This document shows positions 53,493-63,373 of a stretch of DNA of 64,000 nucleotides, piece after piece. The stretch covers positions 1 to 64,000 of IMG/VR virus record IMGVR_UViG_3300047299_000042; one strand, 5' to 3'. The position numbers and the translations under genes were made by a program. Every line of letters begins with the position of its first letter. Position 1 is the stretch's first letter. Below the pieces are notes generated by a model, which saw only the letters and a program-made list of their open reading frames with translations, was not told the DNA's origin and searched no databases. This DNA is from a virus.

Positions 53493-54914
53493 TTAAAAAG
53501 GTTCTATAGTTACATTGTTATCAAAATCTACTTCCATCTTATTAATTACTGAGTTCTTGTAGGCAGGCTCAATTGCCGTAAACCTAAACAACTCTTCCTC
53601 TTCATCAGCTATTCTATTCGTGGTGACATCGCAATACCTTACAACACCACCTGTCATACCATCCCTGTTTTTAAGGATAATAAACTCTAGCGTGTAGTCC
53701 ATATCAGGGACAGGGAGATTGTTAGCGCGCGCTTCTGCTTGAGCATAGTAGTAAGGTCTATACAATCCAATCACAACTGATGCATCCTGCTCGATGTTAC
53801 CTGAACTTCTGATATCAGATAACTGAGGACGCTTGTCGCTTCTGCCCTCAGCGCCACGAGACAATTGACTCAGGCAAATGATAGGAATGTTTAACTTACG
53901 AGTTAACTTCTGAATTTTATTGGATACAGACGATACCTGACTAAAGTCGTCCTGCCCTCGCATCTGATTGTCTCGAATCAACTGCATATAGTCAATATAA
54001 ACTATGTCTATTTTGTTTTTACGACATTCCGTTGTCAAGACCATTGATAGGTAGTTTATGTCTCGATTATCTGAGTCATAAAAGAATATCGGTAGCGACT
54101 TCAACTCTCTTGCATTTGACCTGCGAATCTTCTGAACATCTTCTTGGGTGATACGATTAGCCTTGATATCTGAGTATTTATACTCTGGTGCTTCAGATGA
54201 AATATAACGATACATTAAAGATTCCTTCGGCATCTCAAGTGACAAGAATAACACACGCTTACCTGACTTAGCAGATGACTTAGCAAAGTCTAAACCCACA
54301 ATAGTTTTACCCATTGATGGTCTAGCCGCTATCACAACCATACCCTCTTGCCATCCGCCTAAAGCATAGTTCAACTTTCGTGAACCTGTGTCGATGCCCG
54401 AAAACTTTACGTTTCCTGCGTTGACCTCCAATCTGTCCATCACCTTGTCATACACCTCTCCTAACGAGAAAATGTCGGTGCTTACCACGTCCTGCTCTAT
54501 CTTTGTAACACCTTGGTCTATGATAGTCTGAATCGTAGTGACGTCTTCGTTTCGGTCGATAGCCGACTGAATGCTATTAGTCAAGTCTTGGTACTGACGC
54601 TTCTTCTCTAAGTCCTTTAATTCAGCGCAAGCCGTTGTCAACTCAATGGTTGTCTTGGGAGTCATCGTTAATAGCATCGGTGGCTCATCTGATAGGTAGT
54701 AAGGATTGTCGCTAATGCGCTTAAATATATCGAAACGAGTGTAAGCCTTATTGTCTAAATAAAACTCCTTCATCGTCAGATATGACTCCTTAAATAGGTC
54801 GTAAGTAAATGCGTCCTCGCCTATAATCTTAACCGCATCCTTTACTAGGTGGGGTTTGTCAAGGAGGTAGGCTATTACGTCCGACTCGAGTAATGGTATG
54901 TTTAGTCTTGGCAT
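53493..54914 (-). CDS. dnaB: Replicative DnaB-type helicase
   Basis: A 473-residue helicase. The N-terminal helical domain is followed by a RecA-like core: Walker A ARPSMGKT (197-204, K203), FLSLEMPK with the catalytic Glu region, Walker B YIDYMQL (D308), and the arginine-rich SRGAEGRSDKRPQLSDIRSSG segment. It unwinds DNA at the fork as a hexamer and should recruit host primase and polymerase. No primase domain is attached. It follows the O-like initiator by 1 nt, a lambda O/P-like order with the helicase itself replacing the loader. Confidence 0.9.
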   Translation of the reverse strand: MPRLNIPLLESDVIAYLLDKPHLVKDAVKIIGEDAFTYDLFKESYLTMKEFYLDNKAYTRFDIFKRISDNPYYLSDEPPMLLTMTPKTTIELTTACAELKDLEKKRQYQDLTNSIQSAIDRNEDVTTIQTIIDQGVTKIEQDVVSTDIFSLGEVYDKVMDRLEVNAGNVKFSGIDTGSRKLNYALGGWQEGMVVIAARPSMGKTIVGLDFAKSSAKSGKRVLFLSLEMPKESLMYRYISSEAPEYKYSDIKANRITQEDVQKIRRSNARELKSLPIFFYDSDNRDINYLSMVLTTECRKNKIDIVYIDYMQLIRDNQMRGQDDFSQVSSVSNKIQKLTRKLNIPIICLSQLSRGAEGRSDKRPQLSDIRSSGNIEQDASVVIGLYRPYYYAQAEARANNLPVPDMDYTLEFIILKNRDGMTGGVVRYCDVTTNRIADEEEELFRFTAIEPAYKNSVINKMEVDFDNNVTIEPF

Positions 54915-54915
54915 T

Positions 54916-55563
54916 TTAGTAGTTGTCAGGGATTGTGATTTCGGTTATTTTATTTGCTGATAGTGGAATCGGCGTAGGCTTGTCACCCACTACCTCATCC
55001 TCCCATACTCGGTGTGCAAGGTAGCGCTCAGGGTCTTTCCTATACTTCACCTCTCTACTAGCTATGTAACTAGGCAGAGCATTAAATATTGCTTCTATCT
55101 CAGATGTCTTTAGCTTAGTCCATTTAGCTTTAGCCTTGTCCTTCCCTACCTTCTTATTGTAGGTATTCCAAAACTCTTCAAATCGTTCAATAGAGTTATT
55201 ATTTTCTTTTTTATTATATTCTTTATTATGTGGTGTTTTGACAACGGAGGTATGGTGTTGTAGCACCAGAGGGGTATGGTGTTCTGAAAGCAGAGGGGTA
55301 GTCAATCTAATCTCTCTTGAATCGACTTCATTATTCTCCTTTCTCTTGATGACTCTTGTTATTAATTTCTTCTTTTCCAAGCCTAATAGACAAGTCCTAA
55401 CACCATCTAACTTCATACCCAATGCATCAGCTATGTACTGATTACTCGCAAAGCAATAGCCTTCTTTAGCAGATAAACTATGGATTAATCCCATCAGATT
55501 TTTCTCCGATGCGGTTAAGTCCGTTCGTGCTAGTAAATCATATGGGATTATTATAAAATTCAT
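54916..55563 (-). CDS. Lambda O-like winged-helix replication initiator
   Basis: A 215-residue protein. The first about 85 residues form a winged helix (SEKNLMGLIHSLSA, NQYIADALGMK, GLEKKKLITRV), as in phage O/RepA/DnaD-like initiators. A short His/Thr-rich linker follows, encoded by three iterons. The C-terminus contains a helical domain (FWNTYNKKVGKDKAKAKW) that in related proteins loads the helicase. It would bind the iterons at 63.4 kb and within its own gene. It overlaps the upstream gene by 4 nt. Confidence 0.72.
   Translation of the reverse strand: MNFIIIPYDLLARTDLTASEKNLMGLIHSLSAKEGYCFASNQYIADALGMKLDGVRTCLLGLEKKKLITRVIKRKENNEVDSREIRLTTPLLSEHHTPLVLQHHTSVVKTPHNKEYNKKENNNSIERFEEFWNTYNKKVGKDKAKAKWTKLKTSEIEAIFNALPSYIASREVKYRKDPERYLAHRVWEDEVVGDKPTPIPLSANKITEITIPDNY
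55195..55299 (-). repeat. Three iterons plus AT-rich flank inside the initiator gene
   Basis: Units at 55276-55299 and 55252-55275 (24 bp) and 55230-55251 (22 bp) share the core ACACCA(T/C) with ACC..TC.G. On the minus strand they are followed by an AT-rich stretch (55195-55229). They match the four units at 63376-63468. Lambda places its origin iterons inside O in the same way. Confidence 0.72.
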
Positions 55564-55796
55564 AATGCTGTTTTTAACTCTTCGTTGATTGCGTTCAAGT
55601 CATTTACCATACCTTGGACTAGTCTAGCCAACTTATCGAATGACTCCATATTAGGTCGCGCATATTTAAATAGAGCAGAGTACTCTTTAATTTCTTGCTC
55701 AAGTTTAACTTTGCGCAGGTTAAGTATTGCTCGGTGACACATTATCTCCAACTCGTCGCCAACGAATGGATTTGGGTAAACAACTTGTTCTTCCAT
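55560..55796 (-). CDS. Small helical protein at the start of the replication operon
   Basis: A 78-residue protein starting at 55796 (MEEQVVYPNPF); an upstream extension runs through the terminator hairpin and was rejected. It is largely helical after residue 20. Its ATG lies 5 nt after a T run, so its expression depends on read-through or on a second start of transcription. Not recognised. Confidence 0.5.
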   Translation of the reverse strand: MEEQVVYPNPFVGDELEIMCHRAILNLRKVKLEQEIKEYSALFKYARPNMESFDKLARLVQGMVNDLNAINEELKTAL

Positions 55797-55801
55797 AGTA
55801 C

Positions 55802-55845
55802 AAAAAAAATAAGCCCCCAAACCTTGTTGCGCAGGAGAGGGGGCT
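55802..55845 (-). terminator. Rho-independent terminator of the leader RNA
   Basis: AGCCCCC (55839-55845 side) pairs with GGGGGCT (55812-55818 side), followed by ATTTTTTTT on the minus strand. Confidence 0.78.
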
Positions 55846-55905
55846 GGTTCAAGTTGCCTTGAATACCGAATGAGATGACCGCAACTTCACCTCATCCGCT
55901 AGTAC
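55802..55905 (-). ncRNA. Structured leader or small RNA ending in a terminator
   Basis: After the promoter at 55910 the minus strand carries a long-range stem AAGTTGC/GCAACTT (55881-55887 with 55851-55857), a GATGAG/CTCATT-type stem and finally AGCCCCC...GGGGGCT with eight T. This ends 5 nt before the ATG at 55796. It is either a stand-alone small RNA of about 100 nt or an attenuator of the initiator-helicase operon. Confidence 0.6.
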
Positions 55906-55909
55906 GTTT

Positions 55910-55941
55910 CAAATGTACAACATTAGTTTTAATTAATCAAC
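55910..55941 (-). promoter_or_regulatory. Promoter before the replication operon
   Basis: TACATTTG at 55910-55917 with GTTG about 20 bp upstream. It lies between the gene at 55933 and the leader RNA. Confidence 0.55.
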
Positions 55942-56211
55942 TTCCGTTAGATAATTTATATTCATTAACGGAATCCCAATAGTTCTGAACATCTCAGTTG
56001 GGTGCTGAAAGATTAGTGTGCGAAAGTCCGCCGTTCCCTCAAGGAATACCATAAAGTTTGACTTCTCTCGGTTAACTAATCGGTACTCAACAAGGTACTT
56101 CTGACCTCCTATCAACTTGCTTGTGTCTACGTTAGGGTTGTTTACCTCATAGATATTCTTTCTTAAACCTGTTTTCTCGATTAAGACTGTGTGGATTACT
56201 TTTCTTGACAT
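55933..56211 (-). CDS. Hypothetical protein
   Basis: A 92-residue beta-rich protein (MSRKVIHTVLIEK). It precedes the replication-operon promoter, which lies in its last codons. Not recognised. Confidence 0.42.
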   Translation of the reverse strand: MSRKVIHTVLIEKTGLRKNIYEVNNPNVDTSKLIGGQKYLVEYRLVNREKSNFMVFLEGTADFRTLIFQHPTEMFRTIGIPLMNINYLTEVD

Positions 56212-59022: not shown

Positions 59023-59247
59023 TTATTTATTTAAATGCGCTCTACTACCATAAGGATAAAAAGTCCACCTATCTGACTCGTTATCTTCAAAGTCCAAGGC
59101 TATCTCAATATTCATAAGAGATGCCATCACCTCGTGCAATTTTCCGTCTCTAGGATAATTGTCATTAAGAAATTTTGCGATGCACTCAACCTCATCCATT
59201 ACTAAGTTAGTGCGACGCTCAATAAGTTCTTTTGAATAAGTTTCCAT
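59023..59247 (-). CDS. Small helical protein with hairpin leader 1
   Basis: A 74-residue protein starting at 59247 (METYSKELIERR). An in-frame extension upstream reads through the conserved hairpin and is spurious. The hairpin ends 9 nt before the ATG, so it may control translation. Not recognised. Confidence 0.45.
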   Translation of the reverse strand: METYSKELIERRTNLVMDEVECIAKFLNDNYPRDGKLHEVMASLMNIEIALDFEDNESDRWTFYPYGSRAHLNK

Positions 59248-59256
59248 TGTATGAAT

Positions 59257-59275
59257 GCGGTTGCCTATACACCGC
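59257..59275 (-). promoter_or_regulatory. Conserved translational hairpin 1
   Basis: GCGGT-GTATAGGCA-ACCGC on the minus strand, preceded by AACCTT. It ends 9 nt before the ATG at 59247. Confidence 0.65.
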
Positions 59276-59287
59276 AAGGTTAAATGA

Positions 59288-59503
59288 TTATATAGCATTA
59301 TTTTCTCTTATATTCTTTAAGCATAATGAAAAGAATAATATCTGATGGCAATTATATATAGCATATCCACTACTAGACAAGTCTTTTATTGTATCAGATA
59401 ATTTGCGAGAGGCTTTCTCTACTCCAAACTCTCTTGTAATTTCGTTTGCATAAGTAATTGCATCCTTATAATACTTGTTGTCAATTTTATTTATTGTATT
59501 CAT
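59288..59503 (-). CDS. Small helical protein with hairpin leader 2
   Basis: A 71-residue protein starting at 59503 (MNTINKIDNKYYK). The extension through the hairpin is rejected as above. The hairpin is identical to hairpin 1 over more than 30 bp. Not recognised. Confidence 0.45.
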   Translation of the reverse strand: MNTINKIDNKYYKDAITYANEITREFGVEKASRKLSDTIKDLSSSGYAIYNCHQILFFSLCLKNIRENNAI

Positions 59504-59512
59504 AGTATTGTT

Positions 59513-59531
59513 GCGGTTGCCTATACACCGC
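59513..59531 (-). promoter_or_regulatory. Conserved translational hairpin 2
   Basis: Same stem and loop as hairpin 1; ends 9 nt before the ATG at 59503. Confidence 0.65.
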
Positions 59532-59543
59532 AAGGTTAAATGA

Positions 59544-59960
59544 TTAATGTTTTTTAGTTCTATTTAACTTGTTTAATATATCTACGACTTCTGAATCATC
59601 AATCAATTCAATGGTTTGTCCGTCGTATTTAAAATCCTCTACGGGCAAATACGCATAGTAATATTGGTCGAAATTAATTAGACTAAAGCTATCGTAAGCG
59701 CCATCGCAATCAGCCTCAAAACTCCAAGTAAGAAATCCGTAGCGCATCTCTTGGCTAGAATTAACTTCTTTCATCTTAACAAAGTAAAACTCATTGCCAC
59801 TAGATTTTGAGCGAATCATTGTGTCCGTAAATTGAACAATACATCCGTCTATAATTACGGGCAAAAACAAGTCTTGCTGATGCTCGTAGATGTTCCAATT
59901 CTTTATGCAATTTTCAGTTATAGCCCCCGTGATTGGAGGATTTGATATTGAGGTTCTCAT
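59544..59960 (-). CDS. Acidic hypothetical protein with hairpin leader 3
   Basis: A 138-residue acidic beta-rich protein starting at 59960 (MRTSISNPPITG). The frame extends upstream through the hairpin but the ATG 8 nt after the hairpin is preferred. Not recognised. Confidence 0.45.
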   Translation of the reverse strand: MRTSISNPPITGAITENCIKNWNIYEHQQDLFLPVIIDGCIVQFTDTMIRSKSSGNEFYFVKMKEVNSSQEMRYGFLTWSFEADCDGAYDSFSLINFDQYYYAYLPVEDFKYDGQTIELIDDSEVVDILNKLNRTKKH

Positions 59961-59968
59961 TATAGGTT

Positions 59969-59988
59969 GCGGTTGACCTATACACCGC
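59969..59988 (-). promoter_or_regulatory. Conserved translational hairpin 3
   Basis: GCGGT/ACCGC stem with one extra loop base relative to hairpins 1 and 2; ends 8 nt before the ATG at 59960. Confidence 0.62.
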
Positions 59989-60000
59989 AAGGTGATGATG

Positions 60001-60918
60001 TTATTTAGATAAGATTAATTCGACTGCCTCGTGCGCCTTAGTAGATGCGCTCATAATCAACTTAGGGTCTGACTTGAACTTGCTAATCCATCCGTTGATG
60101 TATGCTTGGCTATTCTTAAAGTCATCTATCGCCGTTTGAATGCCCGTGATAGCCTCTAAGTATAGTGCGCCTAGTTCAGCTACTAACTCCTCTTTGCTAT
60201 ACTCATCAGAGCCAAAACTTGCCATCTTGTCTAGGCGGTCAAGTCTAGTCTTGTGACCCGTTGAGTGGATAGCCTCGTGAAAGAATACCTTGTAGTAGTC
60301 ACCATTAGATTTCCATTGCTCGGTAGTTTTAGCGGGCATATGGATAAAGTCACCGCTAGGAGAGTAGTAAGCGCGACCTTGACCGCTATGCTTCAGCGTT
60401 ACCTCTTTGCACCAAGCCTCAAGGATTGATTCAGCGTGTGCGTCTGCCTCTAGTTCACTAACCTCTACAGGTTGCGATGGGGTGTCAAGTGGTAGGTCAG
60501 TTTGTGAGATAGAGAATACCTTGAACACTTGTAAGTAGAACGCCTTCTTAGCTTGCTTTTGTAGGTGGCTTGGAACATCTTCTAGGCGGGCAAAGTATTG
60601 GGTCTTACCCGCAATCTCGACCGCAAAGTTGACCTTCCAAAGGTAGACATCCGTAGACTTCTCGCCCTTGTTAACACGACCGCCTAGCTTAGATACTTGA
60701 GCGAATGTATACCACTTGTTTACCCATCCCTTGGCGATTGCCTTGCCCGATAGAATGAACTGATTAATGCCTCGGTAGGGTTTCCCTTGTGAGTTGATAG
60801 CTGACCATTGCATAGTCGTGCTATCCTTAAAAGGTTTGAACCATTGCAAGCCTTTAGCTTGTAGTCCTTCGATGATTGTGTTATTGATGTTTTCGATTAA
60901 TTCTGCTTGAGTTGCCAT
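60001..60918 (-). CDS. ardC: ArdC-like antirestriction protein
   Basis: A 305-residue protein. The N-terminal about 100 residues are the ArdC single-stranded DNA-binding domain (WFKPF...INSQGKPYRGINQF...VNKGEKSTDVYLWK). The C-terminal domain is a metallopeptidase-like fold with HEAIH (214-218) and a downstream Glu (E248, in EELVAELGA). ArdC proteins protect incoming DNA from host restriction and are often expressed early or on entry. Its place at the promoter-proximal side of the early arm fits early protection. Confidence 0.85.
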   Translation of the reverse strand: MATQAELIENINNTIIEGLQAKGLQWFKPFKDSTTMQWSAINSQGKPYRGINQFILSGKAIAKGWVNKWYTFAQVSKLGGRVNKGEKSTDVYLWKVNFAVEIAGKTQYFARLEDVPSHLQKQAKKAFYLQVFKVFSISQTDLPLDTPSQPVEVSELEADAHAESILEAWCKEVTLKHSGQGRAYYSPSGDFIHMPAKTTEQWKSNGDYYKVFFHEAIHSTGHKTRLDRLDKMASFGSDEYSKEELVAELGALYLEAITGIQTAIDDFKNSQAYINGWISKFKSDPKLIMSASTKAHEAVELILSK

Positions 60919-62728: not shown

Positions 62729-63373
62729 ATGCTTACTTACGATATCAAACAATCGCCACCTAGCACGGTCGTGGTTGAAGTCGGTGCTGCTATGGATGAC
62801 ACTGTCCAGTACGGTAATTTGAAGCTCCATATAGACCCAGAATTTAATCCTACACACTACGCAAGAATTTATGGTCGAGTAATAGCTGTGCCAGAAGGAA
62901 AAGCCTACAACGAAGAAGGATTTGAGATAGAAAAAGAAGTGCAGGTAGGCGACATTATATACTTCCATTACTTAACTACATCCGATGAAACGAACTGTAT
63001 CTACGGGAACTATTATAAAGTACCTTATTATTGGATATTTTGTGTCGTTAGGGGTGGTAATATATTACCTGTTGGGGGCTGGACTCTTTGCGAGCAGGTG
63101 GTTGAAGAGGAATTTAATACCGTTGAAGTATCTGGTCAGAAAGTTGAAGCGATAACATCGGCATCTGGACTAGTGATTGGTCTCAACAAGAAGCCTTCAA
63201 CTAAGTTCGCAAGACTGTCCCACATTGGCAAACCTTTAGTAGGTCAAGATGAGTTAAAAATCAGCGCAGGTTCTATGGTTATTATCAATAAGAATGCAAA
63301 CTTTAAAAACACAATTGAAGAAAAAGAATACTATACAGTGCGTCAGAGCGACATTTTGTGTGCAAAAGCGTAG
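62729..63373 (+). CDS. GroES-like co-chaperonin (tandem fold, tentative)
   Basis: A 214-residue protein. ARIYGRVIAVP, then VGDIIYFHYL, then WIFCVVRGGNILPVGGWTL follow the order of strands and roof loop of GroES folds. A second half (SGLVIGLNKKP, AGSMVIINKN, YYTVRQSDILCAK) repeats the pattern. T4 gp31 is a shorter phage co-chaperonin that helps host GroEL fold the capsid protein. Here the gene opens the late arm, which fits. Pattern-based only. Confidence 0.5.
   Translation: MLTYDIKQSPPSTVVVEVGAAMDDTVQYGNLKLHIDPEFNPTHYARIYGRVIAVPEGKAYNEEGFEIEKEVQVGDIIYFHYLTTSDETNCIYGNYYKVPYYWIFCVVRGGNILPVGGWTLCEQVVEEEFNTVEVSGQKVEAITSASGLVIGLNKKPSTKFARLSHIGKPLVGQDELKISAGSMVIINKNANFKNTIEEKEYYTVRQSDILCAKA

Follow-up and report, generated by a model that had tools for sequence, protein, structure and literature searches.

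Locus organization and predicted leader RNA

The stretch of DNA analysed here, hereafter the window, covers 64,000 nucleotides (positions 1 to 64,000) of the IMG/VR virus record IMGVR_UViG_3300047299_000042. The record, a contig of 64,940 bases, comes from a virus of Bacteroidota. For the terminase, the closest counterparts are found in Flavobacterium, Cellulophaga and Tenacibaculum phages, with ~32% identity for the best matches. On the minus strand, a predicted promoter, an RNA of ~100 nt and a terminator follow one another between a gene encoding 92 aa (55933-56211) and a gene encoding 78 aa (55560-55796), both also on the minus strand. The latter, for which no family match was found, opens an operon that continues on the same strand with a replication initiator of 215 aa carrying an HTH_36 domain (54916-55563; PF13730, 5e-9; PHROG 270, replication initiation protein, 4e-29) and a DnaB-like replicative helicase of 473 aa (53493-54914; PF03796, 3.5e-66; PHROG 19). 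The original prediction had placed a promoter, a structured RNA of about 100 nt and a terminator just before an initiator-helicase operon. All these parts are present, on the minus strand (the prediction had not stated the strand), and the family matches agree with the identity it gave to the two replication genes.

The putative promoter (55910-55940, minus strand) consists of a TTG box (55940-55938), which overlaps the 3' end of the 92-aa gene, followed after 20 nt by TACATTTG (55917-55910). From its consensus, we take it to be a Bacteroidota-type -33/-7 pair. The TTG/-7 box pattern has 10 matches in the window versus 5.8 ± 2.2 expected, which is weak evidence taken alone; both boxes and their 20-nt spacing are conserved in 14 distinct sequences (window included), with a spacer that has itself diverged. 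From 55940 down to 49720, the minus strand carries no further consensus promoter. An imperfect inverted repeat, which may be an operator, surrounds the -7 box (55900-55922); it is not kept in all relatives, reading TTGTAC...GTACAA in one clade and TTAGAT...ATCTAA in the other.

The predicted leader RNA extends over 55802-55905 (minus strand), its ends being deduced from the promoter and the T run, and contains three hairpins on that strand. According to fold and alignment, the 5' hairpin P1 (55867-55898) has 12 pairs (55898-55887 with 55878-55867) and the loop AGUUGCGG. The alignment also supports P2 (55848-55863), with six pairs closed by a GNRA tetraloop, GCAA or GUAA (UUCAAG-GCAA-CUUGAA in the window). 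The terminator hairpin P3 (55812-55845), again recovered by both fold and alignment, combines outer arms (55845-55839 with 55818-55812) and an inner stem (55835-55833 with 55824-55822). It is followed by a run of eight T (55809-55802, minus strand), the last of which lies 5 nt ahead of the ATG at 55796, exactly the distance originally noticed. A 105-nt minus-strand RNA is predicted to fold at -42.9 kcal/mol, compared with -26.7 ± 2.9 for shuffled sequences (z -5.7; 0/200 as good); the plus-strand fold is weaker (140 nt, z -2.95). The site at 55802-55845 was absent from the list produced by a simple terminator scan.

The loop of P1 exposes the sequence GUUGCG (55880-55885, minus strand; hereafter X), which is complementary to CGCAAC in the terminator loop (55831-55826; X'), so that six pairs are possible between the two hairpins, a potential kissing pair. 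A different contact had originally been proposed, a long-range AAGTTGC/GCAACTT stem. Its letters are indeed there (55887-55881 and 55857-55851), but the key contact is the one between loop 1 and the terminator loop: the long-range stem competes with two better hairpins, shows no double change in relatives and has three broken cells in their alignment.

Conservation of the kissing pair in close relatives

A search with the helicase retrieved 36 loci, comprising 15 with the RNA, 12 ending too near the helicase for the RNA to be visible, the locus L027 and 8 distant ones (~36% helicase identity). A DNA pattern scan gave 20 matches and added the contigs L038 and L044; three of its matches (L041, L054 and L055) were dropped as coding sequence. 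The resulting set of close relatives, picked by sequence similarity and not by pairing, comprised the window and 17 contigs and contained 14 distinct RNAs. In the INPHARED collection we found no DNA relative of the 801-base region.

P1, P2, P3 and the promoter boxes with their spacing are conserved in all 14 distinct RNAs. In P1, 97.6% of the cells of this clade alignment are paired and two pairs show changes on both sides, whereas the six pairs of P2, a hairpin seen in the window's clade only, are all invariant. The kissing pair is intact throughout (84/84 cells paired), includes two pairs with double changes and has a covariation score reached by 0/500 shuffles. The double changes are GUUGAG/CUCAAC in L017 and L021 and GUCGCG/CGCGAC in L020; since these three belong to one clade, they rest on at least two events, and few more. 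X is identical in the other 11 of the 14 distinct sequences. Conservation in relatives had been named in the original prediction as a way to check it, and the comparison came out in its favour. The stretch CGGUAUUCAAGGNAACUUGAA (55848-55868) is invariant in the 14 sequences save one loop position; such conservation goes beyond the needs of base pairing, so that a protein-binding site is possible there.

The 92-aa upstream gene precedes the RNA in the relatives too, even where the downstream gene is different. This is the case of L044, where another gene follows the T run; the same gene (125 aa) is found in L003, two genes ahead of the homologue of the 78-aa gene. The RNA thus keeps its position directly ahead of the first ORF. 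In L027 (3440-4468), a gene homologous to the one at 62729 on the plus strand of the window occupies the place expected for the leader and the first gene, and the control region of this locus seems to have been exchanged.

Distant relatives, cultured phages and controls

A covariance model built from the 14 close RNAs (R1), used with filters off for distant searches, had a single match in the window. It also matched nine divergent loci weakly (L030-L037 and L095; E 0.001 to 1.1), each of which has complementary loops, among them GUUGCAG/CUGCAAC, GUUGCGA/UCGCAAC, GUCGAG/CUCGAC and GUCGCAG/CUGCGAC. The initiators in their operons are different (DUF6291-like, PHROG 11233 or a further HTH-like protein), and DnaB or a primase/helicase comes next. 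The replication families found behind the leader differ, from HTH_36 with DnaB to DUF6291 with DnaB or primase/helicase, and others.

Kissing pairs also occur in cultured phages: GUGAGACG/CGUCUCAC in Flavobacterium phage filifjonk9-1, UGAGAGC/GCUCUCA in Flavobacterium phage elemoA_7-9A and a 9-nt pair in Tenacibaculum phage JQ, which exceeds the loop limit of our descriptor and was read by eye. In Cellulophaga phages phi13:2 and phi19:3 there is a 9-nt pair, CUCUCACAA/UUGUGAGAG, whose 5' partner lies outside any hairpin. A promoter combined with a kissing site occurs once each in the window, in the whole filifjonk9-1 record and in 50,000 bases of elemoA_7-9A. We saw no kissing leader in Cellulophaga phage phi39:1, Riemerella phage CRP6, a Vibrio phage or two faecal phage contigs. 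As judged from these sequences, the design recurs in the same position in many unrelated Bacteroidota phages, its loops differing from leader to leader while still matching each other.

To count such leaders we used a descriptor. A first, tight version missed filifjonk9-1, elemoA_7-9A and phi13:2, which were spotted by eye; these three informed the loosening that led to the fold-based descriptor used for all later counts. It was applied to loci with a DUF6291-type initiator, 80 of them viral (the best 80 of 538 confirmed) and 17 from bacterial genomes. A kissing leader lay within 900 nt of the initiator in 72/97 loci; of the bacterial-genome loci, 3/17 had one, which we count against the leader model. 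For a count blind to pairing, one locus was too short and was dropped, and the remaining 96 yielded 10 duplicates, 47 distinct terminator-like sites 3-25 nt ahead of the initiator ATG and 39 loci without a site at that distance, the latter likewise counted against the model. As many as 46 of the 47 distinct terminators kiss, and the sole exception (L181) has an 8-nt complement that does not lie in a hairpin.

Controls were much lower. Of the 197 distinct terminator-like sites lying no more than 900 nt upstream, 64 kiss versus 3.9 ± 2.1 when their 5' parts were shuffled (maximum 9 in 50 rounds), and when different X sequences were cross-paired 133 of 3882 combinations (3.4%) were complementary; shuffled and cross-paired controls amounted to 2-3% overall. 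Under a stricter terminator rule, applied to all loci except L038-L092 (mostly duplicates) and counting some sites at two T-run starts, kissing occurred at 40/43 DUF6291 starts versus 36/139 other ORFs, most of the latter 36 opening a replication operon or encoding a homing endonuclease. Screening of 6363 terminator-like sites in the same loci left 53 entries that combine a promoter with a kiss; in many cases one site was counted twice, and an ORF follows each.

In an alignment of 37 leaders (A6), whose rows were picked for complementarity, all seven kissing pairs show double changes (58 such cells against a reference value of 11.4 ± 4.0), and 98.3% of the cells are paired versus 39-55% in slid controls. 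Overall, there are about thirty distinct loop sequences of 6-9 nt, and the duplex energies calculated for four loop pairs range from -9.2 to -13.8 kcal/mol. The possibility that ordinary terminators carry complementary loops by chance would agree with the 6-nt matches present in about 1-3% of terminator-like sites (9/302, 11/411, 4/313 and 4/463, true sites included), but the pairing-blind count and the double changes in both the clade and A6 make it extremely improbable.

A second model (R2), built from A6, found in 241 kb two matches only, in filifjonk9-1 and elemoA_7-9A (E 0.024 and 0.23), and missed in the same 241 kb the elements of the window itself, L005, L017, L020, L095 and JQ. It gave 0 matches in 295 bacterial genomes, a search that had no positive control. 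In six genomes reached via our loci, R2 had four weak matches in three of them, and the descriptor detected no promoter with a kissing site there.

Mobile copies of the leader

Two of the relatives contain a second leader, with the loops GUGAGAG/CUCUCAC, ahead of a NUMOD4 endonuclease gene (L017:4915-5075 and L026:3815-3975); an HNH domain was evident in the gene of L017. The two copies occupy different places in their genomes, that of L026 being located between the genes for initiator and helicase. Over the stretch that starts with the -7 box and ends with the T run they are one letter apart, whereas the DNA in front of them differs. A further leader (L121) precedes a T5orf172/MUG113 gene, presumably also of an endonuclease-like kind. 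Since homing endonuclease genes in two locations have a copy in front of them, the module is portable.

These copies bear on whether the RNA acts by itself or on the genes behind it, two options that the original prediction had left side by side. A stand-alone RNA of ~100 nt would act on host polymerase, an mRNA or a protein, the kiss simply folding and protecting it, and the operon would live on leaky read-through. Its own promoter and terminator and its very stable fold would suit such a role, and the invariance of P2 hints at a binding site within the window's clade. As to possible targets in trans, the sequence of X' is present 14 times on one strand of the window and 13 times on the other. 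Nevertheless, dozens of phages have the T run right next to the start codon, the RNA stays directly ahead of the first ORF when another gene is inserted (L044), a near-identical leader precedes homing endonucleases at two places, and the loop sequences vary freely, which argues against a fixed loop target. We consequently regard a stand-alone RNA as unlikely. An attenuator is favoured for two reasons: unrelated phages have the T run close against the ATG (TTTTTTTATG in 43/97 loci, duplicates included), and homing endonuclease genes carry the leader along with them.

Proposed control and comparison with known systems

At the level of sequence, the alignments and counts establish the architecture of the leader, its placement and the conservation of its pairing. 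While its structure and placement are well supported, the direction and the signal of the control are what we infer. That promoter and terminator would be used as such, that the operon would be expressed by read-through and that the kissing complex would be the controlling element we deduce from three features: the lack of another consensus promoter between 55940 and 49720, the T run abutting the ATG, and a distance of 16 nt from the -7 box to X in 21/31 leaders. The reading that we consider probable is that of a cis-acting leader in which a kissing complex between the 5' hairpin and the terminator sets termination and, in this way, the read-through into the replication operon. As predicted from the comparison, the first hairpin exposes a loop X of 6-9 nt and the terminator hairpin exposes in its own loop the exact complement, X', allowing the two hairpins to form a kissing complex, with the first start codon of the operon almost directly after the T run. 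Most transcripts would be RNAs of ~100 nt that stop at the T run. Expression of initiator and helicase, which no intervening consensus promoter serves, would depend on read-through. The level of read-through would be set by whether the kissing complex exists when the polymerase reaches the U tract. We expect the complex to lock the terminator, its strengthening rather than delaying being our choice, and also to mask the translation start of the read-through RNA; release might come from a phage or host factor recognising the complex.

The original prediction had evoked plasmid copy-number RNAs. In plasmid pT181 the initiator mRNA is attenuated by an antisense RNA. In pIP501, repR is likewise controlled by RNA-induced attenuation in the leader (PMC4981023). 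As in both plasmids, the leader of an initiator gene would be terminated prematurely and loop-loop contacts would decide the outcome; in the plasmids, however, the partner loop belongs to a separate antisense RNA, whereas our leader carries the two loops on its sense strand. The nearest known control is the attenuation of plasmid initiator genes by antisense RNA, and it differs in that very point. The analogy holds for the layout, with a leader and terminator before an initiator gene, and fails for the mechanism. The plus strand near the site carries no antisense promoter with both boxes (TTG-N18-21-TAnnTTTG), only a lone TAACTTTG at 55706, and both partners are on one RNA. Plasmid attenuators also have an exclusive antiterminator helix. 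The AAGTTGC/GCAACTT stem could compete, but shows no covariation, and we saw no alternative antiterminator helix in the predicted fold.

The leader might still work in trans, terminated RNAs kissing the nascent leaders of other genome copies so that termination increases as copies rise, with the loops as an incompatibility code between phages. The position ahead of initiator genes, the fully complementary 7-nt loops, the 30 distinct loop sequences and the precedent of RNA-induced attenuation in the repR leader of pIP501 (PMC4981023) would be consistent with it. Yet X and X' are on one molecule, where pairing in cis should beat pairing in trans, which makes copy-number feedback by the terminated RNA less likely; in addition, there is no consensus antisense promoter, and X, being the same in 11/14 sequences of the clade, is not hypervariable. 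Such feedback appears rather improbable.

Returning to control in cis, other known systems share particular traits with this leader. The kissing complexes between RNA I and RNA II of ColE1, together with Rom, are intermolecular and involve an antisense RNA; here too there can be two 7-nt loops that are fully complementary, and a protein could recognise the complex regardless of its sequence, although a single RNA is involved and one partner is the terminator loop. The leaders of T4-type homing endonucleases contain expression-limiting hairpins that hide the ribosome site. Ours resembles them as a structured leader that would restrain a homing endonuclease gene and differs in using a terminator with a kissing loop, not the hiding of a ribosome site. 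Type III toxin-antitoxin loci have the same order of promoter, structured RNA, terminator and ORF; an antitoxin role was rejected, as there are 0 tandem repeats and the downstream genes encode replication proteins (initiator, DnaB) or endonucleases.

In phage lambda, the late promoter is followed by the terminator tR', giving the short 6S RNA, and the late genes are controlled through Q. The likeness in sequence layout, a short terminated RNA with an operon beyond the terminator, raises the possibility that a phage antitermination protein carries polymerase past a promoter-proximal terminator, with the kissing complex as its loading site. The succession of promoter, ~100 nt, terminator and operon, and the lack of another consensus minus-strand promoter before 49720, would fit. 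We recognised no candidate for this protein, though, and unrelated phages as well as mobile endonucleases use the leader, so that a common factor would be needed; we deem this scheme rather improbable. For lambda 6S, we know of no kissing loop.

Rfam contained no match to the site at the gathering threshold, and a search of the site at E values up to 5 returned nothing relevant; one plus-strand match, with E 0.89, was far below threshold, and 20 further loci gave 0 matches. In the literature covered, PMC2864571 and PMC4981023 included and most subscription papers and preprints excepted, we found no kissing-loop leader of this kind. DUF6291 was not mentioned in that literature either.

It is quite possible, though we advance it tentatively, that these leaders form a widespread, hitherto undescribed class of RNA switches in which the terminator loop is read by the 5' hairpin of the same transcript, with 6-9-nt loops that drift freely and always match, gating replication operons and some mobile endonucleases. 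If so, the loop codes could prevent different leaders, including those of co-infecting phages, from interfering with one another. To our knowledge, little is known about the timing of replication genes in Bacteroidota phages, and the recurrence of the leader at these genes suggests that an RNA controls virus replication in a way not yet described. The element is compact and present in cultured Flavobacterium and Tenacibaculum phages. A terminator with a loop programmable by a partner loop would also make a simple, orthogonal gene-control part for Bacteroidota.

Other elements of the window

On the minus strand, the window also encodes an ArdC-like antirestriction protein with a zincin domain (60001-60918; PF08401, PF18818). 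A 51-nt repeat occurs in three minus-strand copies (59240-59290, 59496-59546 and 59953-60003), all of which stop at or next to the start codon (ATG) of a small early gene, and contains a hairpin, CCTTGCGGT-GTATAGGC-AACCGCA, directly ahead of the start codon. The same hairpin precedes various genes in L005, L006, L009, L011, L026, L038 and L044, and the repeat looks like a second, separate mobile leader element.
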